A DNA stretch of 64,000 nt from Hymenobacter aerilatus. GTDB lineage: Bacteria > Bacteroidota > Bacteroidia > Cytophagales > Hymenobacteraceae. The stretch lies in contig NZ_CP095053.1 of assembly GCF_022921095.1 (NCBI RefSeq), forward strand, positions 310,001-374,000, in the 5' to 3' direction. The notes under the pieces were generated by a model, which saw only the letters and a program-made list of their open reading frames with translations, ran no database searches and was not told the origin of the DNA. Position numbers and translations under genes: made by a program. Shown piece by piece: positions 4,274 through 46,712 of this stretch (its first letter is position 1; every line of letters begins with the position of its first letter).

Positions 4274-4419
4274 GAGGGTAGGAAGTGAAACGATCTGTCA
4301 TCCTGAGCGCAGCGAAGGACCTTCTCACGATAGAACGACAAGCGCAACAACGACTCGTTCTGCGGGCATAAGGTCCTTCGCGCTGCTCAGGATGACAGAT
4401 CGTTTCACTTCCTACCCTC
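4274..4419. repeat. dispersed hairpin element, family A copy 1
   Basis: Long inverted repeat. The left arm contains TGTCATCCTGAGC followed by GAAGGACCTT, and the right arm is its complement. Here the arms extend outward into an extra matched stretch (GGTAGGAAGTGAAACGAT). The loop carries AACAACGACTCGTTC, shared with other copies. It lies in the space between convergent genes. Confidence 0.85.
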
Positions 4420-6688: not shown

Positions 6689-6785
6689 AACGTCATTCTG
6701 AGCTTGTCGAGGAATCTCGCGTGCTGACGGTGGATACTATCTTTCATCAGCACGCGAGATTCCTCAACAAGCTCAGAATGACGTT
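6689..6785. repeat. dispersed hairpin element, variant C
   Basis: Inverted repeat with arms starting AACGTCATTCTGAGC and continuing into GAGGAATCTCGCGTGCTGA; the right arm is nearly the exact complement. It is the same superfamily as the GTCATCCTGAGC elements but with a different inner arm (GAGGAATCTC rather than GAAGGACCTT). It lies between convergent genes. Confidence 0.85.
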
Positions 6786-6811: not shown

Positions 6812-7468
6812 TCACAGCTGCATCTCTGGCACATCACCCTTGGGTATCACCAGGCGGCCGGCTGTAGCAGCCTGTATTTGTTCTACGGATACGCCCGGTG
6901 CCCGCTCGCGCAGCACAAAACCGTCAGGCGTCACGTCGAGCACAGCTAGCTCCGTTACGATTTTCCTGACGCAGCGCACGCCCGTGAGGGGTAGGGTGCA
7001 GGCAGGGAGGAGCTTGCTGCTGCCGTCGCGAGCGGTGTGCTGCATGGCCACGATGATGTTGCGGGCCGAAGCTACCAGGTCCATGGCGCCGCCCATGCCT
7101 TTCACCATCTTGCCGGGTATCTTCCAGTTGGAAATGTCGCCGGTTTCGGATACCTCCATGGCACCCAAAATCGTCAGGTCCACGTGCTCGCCCCGGATCA
7201 TCGCAAACGAATCGGCCGAGCTGAAAATGCTGGAGCCGGGTAGCGTGGTCACGGTTTGCTTGCCGGCGTTGATAAGATCGGGGTCTACTTCGGCCTCCGT
7301 CGGAAACGGCCCCATGCCCAGCAGCCCGTTTTCGGATTGCAGCTCCACATTGATACCTTCAGGAATATAGTTGGCCACCAGGGTAGGGATGCCAATACCG
7401 AGGTTGACATAGTAGCCATCGCGCAGCTCCTGAGCAATGCGTTGGGCGATTTGGGTTTTTTCTAACAT
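6812..7468 (-). CDS. scoB: 3-oxoacid CoA-transferase subunit B
   Basis: 218 residues, the usual length for the B subunit. It carries the glycine-rich start [13 protein letters not shown] and the catalytic glutamate in QSENGLLG (Glu46), which forms the glutamyl-CoA thioester. It pairs with ScoA (7940-8635) to move CoA from succinyl-CoA to acetoacetate or a related 3-oxoacid in the cytoplasm. In most genomes scoA and scoB are adjacent or overlap; here 471 bp carrying a GxxExxY gene separate them. The start is the ATG at 7468, directly beside one arm of the inverted repeat. Identification is secure; the exact acid substrate is not proven. Confidence 0.92.
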
Positions 7469-7471
7469 GGT

Positions 7472-7940
7472 TTTTTTCGCGCGGAGCGCGCAGAGTTTTA
7501 GGGCGTCTGTCTTTATAGGCCGTTTACCAGGCGGGAGAGCTGGGAGCGGAGCAGCGCCGTGTTGAAATTCATGAGTAGACCGAGCTTGTAATAGGCGAGT
7601 TTCAGGTAGGTTAATAGCTGCTTGTGATGCACGGGCAGCAGCGTTTCAATGGATTTTAACTCGACTACTACTTTGTTTTCCACCAATAAGTCAAGTCGAA
7701 AGCCCAAATCCAGCTTTACCTCATCATAGATGACGGGAATGGGTTTCTGAGTTTCTACATGCAGTCCGTACTTACGCAGCTCATACGCCAAAACGGCTTC
7801 ATACACCGATTCCAACAACCCCGGCCCTAAAGCAGTGTGCACCTTGAAAGCCGCACCAATCACGCGGTCAGAAATTTGATTCTCGTGCATATGTTTTCCA
7901 GACAGACGCCCCAAAACTCTGCGTACTCCGCGCGAAAAAT
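7472..7940. mobile_element. putative mobile cassette: 41-bp inverted repeats flanking a GxxExxY gene
   Basis: The left arm (7472-7512) and the right arm (7900-7940, reverse-complemented) match at 37 of 41 positions, sharing CGCGCGGAG, CGCAGAGTTTT and GGGCGTCTGTCT. The arms sit directly outside the GxxExxY reading frame. The outer edges touch the scoA stop codon on one side and lie 3 bp from the scoB start on the other. A normally contiguous operon is thus interrupted by a repeat-bounded single gene without breaking either neighbour. No transposase is present and no clear target duplication can be read. Confidence 0.65.
7513..7890 (-). CDS. GxxExxY protein (PD-(D/E)xK-like, PDDEXK_3 family)
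   Basis: 125 residues from the ATG at 7890; the longer frame to 8007 would overlap scoA and is rejected. The motif that names the family is intact: Gly24-x-x-Glu27-x-x-Tyr30. A nuclease-like core follows with Asp67 and Glu77-x-Lys79 (RLDLLV...VELKS), fitting the PD-(D/E)xK fold. Family members are common in Bacteroidota and Planctomycetes, and their role is not established. It is inserted between scoA and scoB and bounded by inverted repeats, so its presence here looks acquired. The family is secure; nuclease activity is an inference from the motif. Confidence 0.9.
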
Positions 7941-8635
7941 TAACGCCGCACCGTACGCTGCTCAATTCGCTTCTCGTACTCCCTACCCTCAAAAATGCGC
8001 TGCACAAAAATGCCGGGGGTGTGGATGTGGTTAGGGTCTAGTTCGCCGGCTGGTACCAGCTCCTCCACCTCGGCCACCGTTATTTTGCCAGCGGTAGCCA
8101 TCATGGGGTTGAAGTTGCGGGCCGTGCCTTTGTAGATGAGGTTGCCAGCCGTGTCGCCGCGCCAGGCTTTCACGAGGGCAAAATCGGCGTGCAGGGCGGT
8201 TTCCAGCAGATACATCTTGCCATTGAACTCGCGGCTCTCTTTGCCTTCGCCTACCTCCGTACCGTAGCCAGCAGGCGTATAAAAGGCCGGAATACCCGCG
8301 CCGCCCGCCCGCACGCGTTCGGCCAGCGTGCCCTGCGGAATCAGCTCCACTTCCAGCTCTCCACTCAGCAACTGTCGCTCAAATTCAGCGTTTTCGCCCA
8401 CATAGCTGGAAATCATCTTGCGCACTTGCCGGGTTTGCAGCAGTAGCCCAATGCCAAAATCATCGACGCCCGCGTTGTTGCTGATGCACGTCAGCTCCCG
8501 CACGCCCCGGCGCAGAATTTCCTGAATGGCATTTTCGGGGATGCCGCACAGGCCGAAGCCGCCCAGCATCAGGGTCATGCCATCAGTGAGGCCCGCCAGC
8601 GCCGCCTGGGCATCGGGTACTACTTTGTTGATCAT
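7940..8635 (-). CDS. scoA: 3-oxoacid CoA-transferase subunit A
   Basis: 231 residues from the ATG at 8635. It shows the subunit A hallmark [10 protein letters not shown] near residues 24-34 and a normal C-terminus ([10 protein letters not shown]). It binds CoA and partners with ScoB in ketone-body or 3-oxoacid activation. The stop codon abuts the right arm of the 41-bp inverted repeat, so the inserted GxxExxY cassette did not truncate the protein. Co-transcription with scoB now has to pass through the inserted gene. Identification is secure. Confidence 0.92.
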
Positions 8636-18703: not shown

Positions 18704-18743
18704 ATAGACAGTGGTCGGATGGATATTTCAGTGAAAAGCCACT

Positions 18744-18843
18744 TGTCATCCTGAGCTTGCGAAGGACCTTCTCACGCTAGAACAAGTCGTTGTTACGAGC
18801 ATCGTGCTGACGTGAGAAGGTCCTTCGCAAGCTCAGGATGACA
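18744..18843. repeat. dispersed hairpin element, family A copy 3 (reverse orientation)
   Basis: Near-perfect arms (TGTCATCCTGAGC, GAAGGACCTTCTCACG). The loop contains AAGTCGTTGTTACGAG, the reverse complement of the AACAACGACT loop in other copies, so this copy sits in the opposite orientation. It lies between two divergently read genes. Confidence 0.88.
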
Positions 18844-18989
18844 GATGATTTTATCGGTAATTGCACTGGTGCAAAGGACCCTCAAGCGCACGTAAACGAC
18901 TGTTATTTTGTGTTAAAGAATGTTAACGGCTTGATTCCCTACCCCCACCGGCCGTACTTGCAGGTACTCGCCCTTCAGCCGTGCCGCCC

Positions 18990-25826: not shown

Positions 25827-25915
25827 GTCATGCTGAGCTTGCCGAAGCATCTCTACCGCTTCGTTGTTATTAGAATTTAGTCACGGTAGAGATGCTTCGG
25901 CAAGCTCAGCATGAC
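25827..25915. repeat. dispersed hairpin element, family B copy 1
   Basis: Arms GTCATGCTGAGCTTGCCGAAGCATCTCTACCG and complement, almost perfect. The loop has TCGTTGTTAT, the reverse complement of the ATAACAACGA seen in family A loops. This ties the two families together and again indicates opposite orientation. It lies in the 347-bp divergent gap between tamB and tsaD; nothing else is clear in that gap. Confidence 0.88.
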
Positions 25916-29473: not shown

Positions 29474-29588
29474 ACCCGTCTGTCATCCTGAGCAGCGCGA
29501 AGGGCCTTCTCACGTGAGAGCAGCAGGCGTCACAACGACTCGTTCTGCGGGTATAAGGTCCTTCGCGCTGCTCAGGATGACAGGCGGG
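29474..29588. repeat. dispersed hairpin element, family A copy 5
   Basis: Arms ACCCGTCTGTCATCCTGAGC and complement, with GCGCGAAGGGCCTTCTCACG inside; the loop has CACAACGACTCGTTCTGCGG, nearly identical to the loop at 4274-4419. It lies between convergent genes. Confidence 0.88.
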
Positions 29589-29599
29589 TGTAGAAGTAA

Positions 29600-36779: not shown

Positions 36780-36801
36780 AGCAGCAGATTAATAGCCGAA
36801 T

Positions 36802-36910
36802 AGAACGGTCATGCTGAGCGCAGTCGAAGCATCTCTACCGTAGCAGTAATTTAATCGTCAGAAGTTACTCATGGTAGAGATGCTTCGACTGTGCTCAGCA
36901 TGACCGTTCT
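36802..36910. repeat. dispersed hairpin element, family B copy 2
   Basis: Arms AGAACGGTCATGCTGAGC followed by CGAAGCATCTCTACC, with near-complementary right arm. The loop (AGTAATTTAATCGTCAGAAG) differs from the family A loop. It lies between two genes on the same strand. Confidence 0.87.
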
Positions 36911-36936
36911 AACGCAATCCACCCTACCCCCAGCGC

Positions 36937-45074: not shown

Positions 45075-45098
45075 ATTTGTTATACTGAAATAATCGTG

Positions 45099-45234
45099 TG
45101 TCATCCTGAGCATTCCGCGCATCAAGCGGCGACGAAGGACCTTCTCACACTAGAACGACCATCATAACAACGACTCGTTCTTGCGTGAGAAGGTCCTTCG
45201 TCGCCGCTTGATGCGCGGAATGCTCAGGATGACA
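45099..45234. repeat. dispersed hairpin element, family A copy 6 (long-arm form)
   Basis: Arms TGTCATCCTGAGCATTCCGC, continuing GCATCAAGCGGCGACGAAGG then ACCTTCTCAC, fully complementary on the right. The loop has ATAACAACGACTCGTTC. It carries the same ATTCCGCGCATCAAGCGG arm insertion as the copy at 12444. It is the cleanest copy in the window and lies between convergent genes. Confidence 0.92.
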
Positions 45235-45242
45235 GAGAATAT

Positions 45243-46712
45243 TTATAGTACCACCAGCTTCTTCACTACCTTTTCCGTAGCACTAGACACCTGCACCATA
45301 TACACGCCACTGGGTAGGGTAGCTTTTTTACCTAGATCTAAGGTGCTTTCGGAAGTAGTTTGCTGCCACACCTGCTGCCCGTTTGCATTGGTAACGCGCA
45401 CCGTGAGCGGGGTAGTTGGGTCAGGGTTTTGCAAGCGCAGTAGCAGCGGCGTGCCCGCCGCCCGCGGGTTAGGGTACACCTCTACGCCCAGCGAGGTAGG
45501 CAAGGTAGCGGCTGCCGCGCCGCCGTCTTTGGCAGTGGCTGCGGCAGAGAGGGTAGCCGTTGTCACCTTTGTGATGCGTAGCCAGTTGAAGTTCCAGCCG
45601 CCGGTTTGGGCAAACACGCCGAAGTTGTAGGTGCCCGCATTCACGTTCACGGTCTGCGACACGGTGGTCCAGTTCTGCCAGCCGCCCGTGGCCGGAATGC
45701 TCACATTTCCGAGTTGGGTGGAGCCTGCGTTTAGGTCCGACGACAGGGTAGCGCCACTGGGGCTGGCCACGCGGTACTCAATCTTGTAGGCGCCGGAAGT
45801 AGGGAAGCTCACGTTGTTGTAGGCCATCCAGTCGCCGGCGTCGATGTAGGCTACGTTCTGGCCGCCGCCCGTATCGGTGGTGTTTTCCAGCTGCACGCCG
45901 TTCATGCTGCCGTAGCTCTCAGCCTGAATGGTAGTGGAGGTAGGCGTCGTGGTACCGCCGGTTTTCTGGTATACCCGCACGTAGTCGACATACATGGTAG
46001 CGGGCAGCTTGCTTTCGTCTACGGTCTGGCCGGGCCAGTTGCCGGCCACAGCCAGGTTCAGCAGCAAGAAAAACGGTCGGTGAAATTCCTCGGTACTACC
46101 CACGTTGTTGAGAATGCTCATCTCGTGGTACTTCACGCCATCCACAAACCAGCGGATGGCGCTGGCGTCCCACTCCACCGAGTACACATGGTAGCCCGAG
46201 AGGTCGAGGGAGGTGTTGCCGCCGTATTCGGCGTGGCCATTGCTGTCCCAGTGCGGCGTGCCGTAGATTTTATTTTCGGAGTTGATGTGCTCCATGATGT
46301 CGATTTCACCGCAACGAGGCCAGCTTACTTGGTCGATGTTGCCGCCCAGCATCCAAAACGCCGGCCACAGGCCTTGGCCCAGCGGTACCTTGATGCGGGC
46401 CTCCATCTTGCCGTAGGTGAACTCCTTGATGCCCTTGGTAATCATGCGAGCCGAGGTGTAGGGCATGCCGCCTACCGTCTGCTTCCGGGCCGTGATTTGT
46501 AAGATGCCGTTGGCTACCGTAGCATTGGCGGCCTGATAATACTGCTTCTCATTGTTGCCCCAGCCGCCACCGCCGGTTTCAAATTTCCAGCTGGAGCTGA
46601 TGCCGTTGGTAAACTCATCGGCCCACACCTGCTGGTAGGTTTGGGCCTGCACGGCCACTGGGCCAGCTAAGCATAGTGCAGCGCCCAGAAGTTTGGTAAG
46701 CGTGTTTTTCAT
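45243..46712 (-). CDS. GH16 beta-glucanase with CBM6 and type IX secretion C-terminal domain
   Basis: About 489 residues from the ATG at 46712 (MKNTLTKLLGAAL, signal peptide); the longer frame to 46895 is rejected. The GH16 domain (about 25-265) contains the catalytic GEIDIMEH (Glu136, Asp138, Glu141). A CBM6-like domain follows (about 275-395, AESYGSMNG and YIDAGDWMAY). The last about 75 residues (VEVYPNP...SGVYMVQVSS...KLVVL) are a type A sorting domain for type IX secretion. It probably cleaves laminarin or mixed-linkage beta-glucan outside the cell. Presence of the sorting domain implies a type IX system elsewhere in the genome. Confidence 0.92.
   Translation of the reverse strand: MKNTLTKLLGAALCLAGPVAVQAQTYQQVWADEFTNGISSSWKFETGGGGWGNNEKQYYQAANATVANGILQITARKQTVGGMPYTSARMITKGIKEFTYGKMEARIKVPLGQGLWPAFWMLGGNIDQVSWPRCGEIDIMEHINSENKIYGTPHWDSNGHAEYGGNTSLDLSGYHVYSVEWDASAIRWFVDGVKYHEMSILNNVGSTEEFHRPFFLLLNLAVAGNWPGQTVDESKLPATMYVDYVRVYQKTGGTTTPTSTTIQAESYGSMNGVQLENTTDTGGGQNVAYIDAGDWMAYNNVSFPTSGAYKIEYRVASPSGATLSSDLNAGSTQLGNVSIPATGGWQNWTTVSQTVNVNAGTYNFGVFAQTGGWNFNWLRITKVTTATLSAAATAKDGGAAAATLPTSLGVEVYPNPRAAGTPLLLRLQNPDPTTPLTVRVTNANGQQVWQQTTSESTLDLGKKATLPSGVYMVQVSSATEKVVKKLVVL

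Follow-up and report, generated by a model that had tools for sequence, protein, structure and literature searches.

We propose that the GxxExxY gene lying between scoA and scoB in Hymenobacter aerilatus and the two inverted arms around it form an exchangeable unit, in which a predicted nuclease gene is combined with its cognate arms of iterated CRCRGAK units and which works in the manner of REP/RAYT, the nuclease taking the part of the transposase; we put the probability of this reading at about 0.5. Sequence comparison establishes the architecture and its generality, the coupling of arms to protein clade, the replacement of whole units between intact genes, the near-empty sites, the gene-less copies with matching arms and the purifying selection on the protein. 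The presence of different variants at one site in related species, or the absence of the arm-boxed unit there, suggests on sequence comparison an undescribed kind of mobile DNA.

The window, a stretch of 64,000 nt (G000:C1:310001-374000), comes from a genome of 5.28 Mb. In it the GxxExxY gene (PDDEXK_3; TIGR04256, PF13366, ORF bounds) encodes 125 amino acids and occupies 7513 to 7890 on the minus strand, start and stop codons included. The flanking genes, both on the minus strand and outside the unit, encode 3-oxoacid CoA-transferase subunits A (scoA, 7940 to 8635, TIGR02429) and B (scoB, 6812 to 7468, TIGR02428). Repeat search and arm score placed one arm 5' of the GxxExxY gene, at 7900 to 7939 on the minus strand, abutting the scoA stop, and the other 3' of it, at 7473 to 7512 on the plus strand, abutting the scoB start, so that coding genes stand directly outside both, as an earlier note on this DNA had described. 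Its count of 37 matching positions also stands, but over an arm length of 40 (37/40) rather than 41; the repeat search gave 40 nt for each arm, 93% complementarity and a spacing of 387 nt. These 387 nt are filled by the GxxExxY frame, and no transposase gene was found within the terminal inverted repeats. Read from the sequence, the 5'-side arm holds the units CGCGGAG (7926-7932) and CGCAGAG (7917-7923) on the minus strand, and the 3'-side arm holds CGCGGAG (7480-7486) and CGCAGAG (7489-7495) on the plus strand.

Other palindromes occur in the window. One without a gene, of a kind found between scoA and scoB in other species, lies directly downstream of scoB at 6689-6785. Six further long palindromes, also with no gene between their arms, lie at 4274-4419, 18735-18852, 25827-25915, 29474-29589, 36801-36911 and 45083-45250, and several of these are of the GTCATnCTGAGC type.

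The GxxExxY protein of the window gave strong matches to TIGR04256 (E 4.4e-43, 146.3 bits against a cut-off of 35) and PF13366 (E 1.1e-41, 142.3 bits against a cut-off of 22). PF13366 was its sole clear Pfam match, with Cas_Cas4 a weak second (E 0.25), and the PADLOC defence library returned Cas4 only (E 0.026). Columns invariant among 34 sequences include H18, G22, G24, E27, Y30, D67, E77, K79 and Q91. An AlphaFold2 model (pLDDT 94.1) had its best structure match in SSO0001 (4ic1; Foldseek E 2.5e-3; VIA Z 9.6, rmsd 3.2 over 99 residues), which we take to be a Cas4 protein, and the next matches were other PD-(D/E)xK proteins; no Foldseek match to the model had an E value of 0.001 or better. 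The PD-(D/E)xK core ascribed to the family earlier is borne out by the invariant D67, E77, K79 and Q91 and by the fold matches; going by the model, the protein belongs to the PD-(D/E)xK nuclease superfamily and is a predicted nuclease. It has a 97% identical match in Hymenobacter profundi, and dN/dS was 0.01-0.09 in 12 same-site pairs, chosen among the most similar; values this low indicate strong purifying selection, and thus a protein that has been kept functional.

Arms accompany GxxExxY genes throughout the genus. TIGR04256 matches were present in 82 of 120 genus genomes, 195 matches in total, and 112 of these, from 64 genomes, were examined; since they are mostly the best-scoring of the 195, decayed copies are under-represented. 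The arm score of a locus is that of the highest inverted match obtained on comparing its two 300-nt flanks; the threshold was 18, and windows further out within each locus served as controls. The score was 18 or more at 110 of the 112 loci (median 38.5; window locus 32.5) and at none of 331 control comparisons (maximum 17.5). The two exceptions, L040 (12) and L151 (15), lack clear arms, and the control gene scoB in the same genus reached 15 at 0/30 loci. A check of other GxxExxY genes of the genus, which the earlier note had proposed, thus turned up inverted arms at nearly all of them, but the one fixed 41-bp sequence it had envisaged gave way to a family of arms composed of short repeated units: the sequence varies between loci, and the two arms of one locus match each other. 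The genome of the window illustrates this, having three GxxExxY genes, all three with arms and each pair different in sequence. The same genome holds L002-type arms as an inside-out pair (L015, C1:3189256), a gene-less palindrome of 66 nt (L022, C1:3039985) and a solo arm (L020, C1:2688161). At L045, L098, L104 and other loci, the GxxExxY frame extends into the 3' arm, which is translated as a Pro-Ser-Ala-rich tail.

The arms range from 26 to 99 nt and are built of short units, roughly CRCRGAK, whose spacing is mostly 9-12 nt within Hymenobacter and 8-12 nt in other taxa. Inward-facing C[AG]C.[AG]A[GT] occurred 4.48 times per genus locus versus 0.97 in control regions. The unit motif was defined after the arms had been seen, so that a phylum sample alone serves as a test after it was fixed: TIGR04256 was present in 101 of 198 genomes there, and at least four inward units were found at 28 of 30 loci versus 2 of 30 control regions. 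The arm score in this sample reached 15 at 20 of 30 loci versus 2 of 90 controls, one control scoring 31.5. A wider set was formed by the best 80 of 337 relatives from a single-protein query, which favours close relatives, and included Bacteroidota, Cyanobacteria, Ignavibacteria/Chlorobiota, Acidobacteria, Verrucomicrobia and Deltaproteobacteria/Geomonas, among others. The arm score was at least 15 at 57 of these 80 and below 15 at the other 23, versus at least 15 in 4 of 214 controls. Among the 68 loci from outside Hymenobacter, 45 scored 15 or more and 29 scored 18 or more; inward units averaged 6.99 per locus versus 0.85 in controls, and 61/68 loci had at least four versus 2/68 controls. 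Outward units were also raised at these loci (2.69 versus 0.99), and at eight of them they outnumbered the inward ones.

As far as the sequences tell, the type of arm goes with the clade of the protein. GAG-type arms went with protein clade 1 at 72 of 72 loci and GATT-type arms with clade 2 (IYQR/VYQR) at 35 of 37, both classifications being post hoc and covering 109 loci, without L040, L151 and L117. The Mantel correlation reached 0.675 with arm sequence, compared with 0.376 when sequence beyond the arms was used; none of 2000 permutations attained either value. Within the arms, the variable half of the units agreed at 0.506 between units of the same arm and at 0.508 between units of different rank in opposite arms, but at 0.130 between contexts; agreement so much higher within an element indicates concerted change of its units, which is what one would expect if a single protein reads them.

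Comparison of loci at shared sites points to replacement of the whole unit. In 8 of 527 same-site pairs, mean flank identity was 0.90 or higher. The unit interior was 0.64-0.69 identical in five of the eight (L035/L114, L037/L088, L046/L104, L027/L115 and L024/L131) and 0.88-0.97 identical in the remaining three. The flanks of these five pairs were compared over ∼880-985 nt per side. In all five, identity dropped and recovered near the arms within ∼100-200 nt; across all same-site pairs, flank identity was barely predictive of unit identity (Spearman 0.11). Checked by windows, L032 proved to be inverted relative to the other units at its shared site. Reversal was flagged in 45 pairs, of which 19 involve L032 and 4 involve L117, whose strand was mis-called; L150/L030 aligned too poorly to judge. 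At scoA-scoB itself, the genes of G000 (the genome of the window) and G016 are 0.88-0.90 identical, and the arms and GxxExxY interior are 0.73-0.75 identical, the G016 copy being frameshifted. Between G000 and G055, identity is 0.87-0.89 for the genes and 0.89-0.95 for the unit, similar values that fit common descent. Judged from such alignments, whole units are exchanged between intact genes, and no second recognisable gene was found inside; in both respects the minimal unit conceived earlier holds up. Many same-site units are common to several species, so turnover may be slow.

These exchanges have also to be weighed against a homing-like drive, in which the nuclease would cut alleles that have another unit or none, and incoming homologous DNA would serve as the template for repair, so that the unit is copied together with its flanking tracts, with no transposition proper and with new sites rare. 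G071 and G072 are the reason to take homing by recombination as a serious rival: their far flanks are identical (1.00), and at one site a core of 0.53-0.68 identity is surrounded by a tract of 0.83-0.96, which extends on either side into the flanking gene. The exchange looks like a mosaic tract produced by homologous recombination, and to that extent it goes against the nuclease-driven spread that the earlier note had raised as a possibility; the same tract could, however, be the product of ordinary recombination without any drive. Reuse of sites is also in keeping with homing, 110 loci falling into 31 contexts, the largest with 35, where contexts were formed by single linkage, which may merge sites, and L117 is included in the counts. 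The five swaps, however, have their edges at the arms and no graded tracts, and the reversed L032 and the gene-less copies at many places would need more than allele conversion. Overall we consider homing unlikely. A GxxExxY gene in G072 is seemingly interrupted by an additional ∼1.2 kb, which the near-identical G071 lacks (L350 versus L353).

Sites with and without the unit were compared at the scoA-scoB joint and elsewhere. scoB is present in all 120 genus genomes; 90 scoB joints were taken, and scoA was within reach in 53. The joint is nearly empty in L278 (12 nt). It is occupied by a GxxExxY gene in three cases (L053-L055), by a four-helix-bundle gene in three (L062, L301 and L320), by a gene-less CGCAGTG palindrome in three (L279, L291 and L305) and by a gene-less unit with GATT arms in one (L074); others hold further palindromes or other genes. 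Four further GxxExxY sites have counterparts in other species with 45-170 nt in place of the unit. The insertion into an operon joint posited in the earlier note implied sites that lack the unit, and the 12-nt joint and these four counterparts are such sites. The unit replaces the stop-to-start spacer, most clearly in L097 versus L361. Among five filled/empty comparisons we saw no target duplication, although the replaced spacer could hide one, and caught no fresh insertion. Across L053-L082 and L273-L332, the scoA-scoB joint is a natural hot spot: besides GxxExxY and four-helix-bundle units, palindromes of many unrelated families are found there from one species to another.

Copies of the arms without a gene were sought with the pattern TTTAGCCCGCAGANGNCGC, which was found in 44 of 120 genus genomes; the reversed control had none among the matches listed. 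In the 150 matches listed, at least 11 inward pairs are 447-456 nt apart, a distance that the gene fits, 10 of them coinciding with known TIGR04256 matches and the eleventh, in G040, being without a listed one. At least nine inward pairs, at 67-102 nt, are too short for the gene; at least two are longer (2.7 and 4.5 kb), at least six pairs face outward at 31-34 nt, and 94 of the 150 copies are unpaired. The gene-less joints L279, L291, L305 and L074 match GxxExxY arms at 30.5-45.5, and Y1_Tnp or four-helix arms at 10.5 or less, with 10 or less for RAYT arms taken alone. Such gene-less copies qualify as MITEs in carrying the ends of a putatively autonomous element, a definition under which the window unit itself does not come.

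Two other small gene families in Hymenobacter are bracketed by arms. Y1_Tnp (PF01797) matches were found in 83 of 120 genus genomes and served as a positive control, the arm score being 18 or more at 18 of 26 genes, as expected for RAYT-like genes (four of the 30 loci were left out because they were short). The inverted repeats around these genes (L456-L477) contain GTAG or are palindromic, an arrangement suggestive of a RAYT system in Hymenobacter. Four-helix-bundle genes (TIGR02436) occur in 99 of 120 genus genomes, and among 30 of them (L163-L192) the arm score was at least 18 in 14 and at least 15 in 26, compared with at least 18 in 1 of 90 controls. Their arms are made of TTAG-type short units, a second small gene family of the same design. 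We rejected RAYT-driven movement of the GxxExxY unit: a PF01797 search gave no Y1_Tnp match in the genome of the window, and RAYT arms do not match GxxExxY arms.

That several gene families are bracketed in this way lends some weight to the idea that GxxExxY is a passenger, the cargo of palindromic MITE-like elements moved by a transposase encoded elsewhere, and so do the unrelated gene-less palindrome families at the scoA-scoB joint and the many unpaired arm copies. A passenger would not be expected to have arms that follow its own clade, however, or to be accompanied by a CRCRGAK-type unit in other phyla as well. RAYT arms in Hymenobacter differ in kind, the Y1_Tnp search of the window's own genome was negative, and, apart from the two longer ones, the inward pairs among the matches listed are either gene-sized or too short for the gene. 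We consider it unlikely that GxxExxY is cargo. Still more improbable is an RNA-level device, in which the arms would pair in the transcript and RNase III would cut there, rendering an insertion in an operon harmless: the unit does lie between two genes of one operon, and as a single strand it folds far better than shuffled sequence (z -7.5, reached by 0 of 100 shuffles, with DNA parameters), but only 95 of the arm mismatches could form G.U pairs in sense RNA, versus 148 of the A.C type (L117 left out), the reverse of what sense-RNA pairing predicts, and pairing alone leaves the unit motif shared across phyla unexplained.

For the nuclease-and-arms unit, the simplest reading is that it would be excised or copied through action of the nuclease on arm units that it recognises. 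The protein may bind the units and cut there, its target being either the arms as such or the hairpin or cruciform into which they might fold; host recombination would then place the DNA in stop-to-start joints, where no gene is harmed, and gene-less copies could be carried in trans. Weighing against this reading are the lack of a duplication or a fresh insertion in the five filled/empty comparisons, the sharing of same-site units across species, the G071/G072 tract and the low arm scores of L040, L151 and 23 of the 80 relatives; a transposase of a family other than Y1_Tnp may also help in trans. A bolder version, which we offer tentatively and think somewhat less probable than not, holds that minimal mobile elements in several phyla make up a new superfamily, with GxxExxY genes as its autonomous members. 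Their stand-alone Cas4-like nuclease would read iterated 7-nt units in the long arms and spread itself and gene-less satellites through operon joints with no transposase; four-helix-bundle genes, with their TTAG-type arms, would form a second superfamily alongside. To our knowledge no role has been assigned to the GxxExxY (PDDEXK_3) family, widespread as it is. We found no paper on such a role, and no description of flanks or arms of GxxExxY genes, in the open-access literature searched, where PDDEXK_3, TIGR04256 and five arm strings gave no paper either and PF13366 none among the papers listed; most subscription journals lay outside the search. The cognate arms provide a testable substrate for the protein, and if it acts on them, a large family gains a function. 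If the proposal is true, a class of intergenic palindromes would be satellites of a nuclease-run element, and DNA could spread through a nuclease and host recombination alone.

Several known systems resemble the unit in part. Rpn (recombination-promoting nuclease) proteins have a PD-(D/E)xK fold but belong to family PF04754, unlike the window protein (PF13366). One paper links Rpn proteins with horizontal transfer (PMC5350276), and another describes them as toxin-antitoxin systems that fight phages (PMC10327210). Casposons, on which there are two papers (PMC4046053, PMC4150552), are elements built on a CRISPR adaptation enzyme, whereas the GxxExxY unit is without a Cas1 or polymerase gene. The likeness to Cas4 lies in the best structure match of the modelled protein, which at 124 residues, versus 202 in 4ic1_G, is shorter and has a weak sequence match to Cas4 models. 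The BrickBuilt MITE of Porphyromonas gingivalis, also in the Bacteroidota, combines intergenic inverted repeats with internal tandem repeats; going by the abstract of its description (PMC4596501), it has no GxxExxY gene, and its repeat unit is 23 nt long, in contrast to the 7-nt units of GxxExxY arms.

Intervening sequences of 23S rRNA with an S23 ORF, regarded as a selfish element (PMC4990558), likewise place a small ORF between complementary arms. They are located in 23S rRNA and excised by RNase III, whereas the GxxExxY unit lies between scoA and scoB and carries a predicted nuclease; four-helix-bundle genes, as in intervening sequences, stand alone with arms in Hymenobacter. Homing endonuclease genes cleave the empty allele and co-convert its flanks; on the latter point one mosaic tract here stands against five sharp-edged swaps. 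In REP/RAYT systems, as in ours, a small gene lies between inverted repeats in intergenic DNA, and gene-less copies are found elsewhere. RAYT is a Y1 tyrosine transposase, however, and the GxxExxY unit encodes a PD-(D/E)xK protein matched by PF13366 only; REPs are tagged by GTAG, which inspection did not find in the window arms (7473-7512 and 7900-7939), whereas GxxExxY arms are iterations of the CRCRGAK unit.
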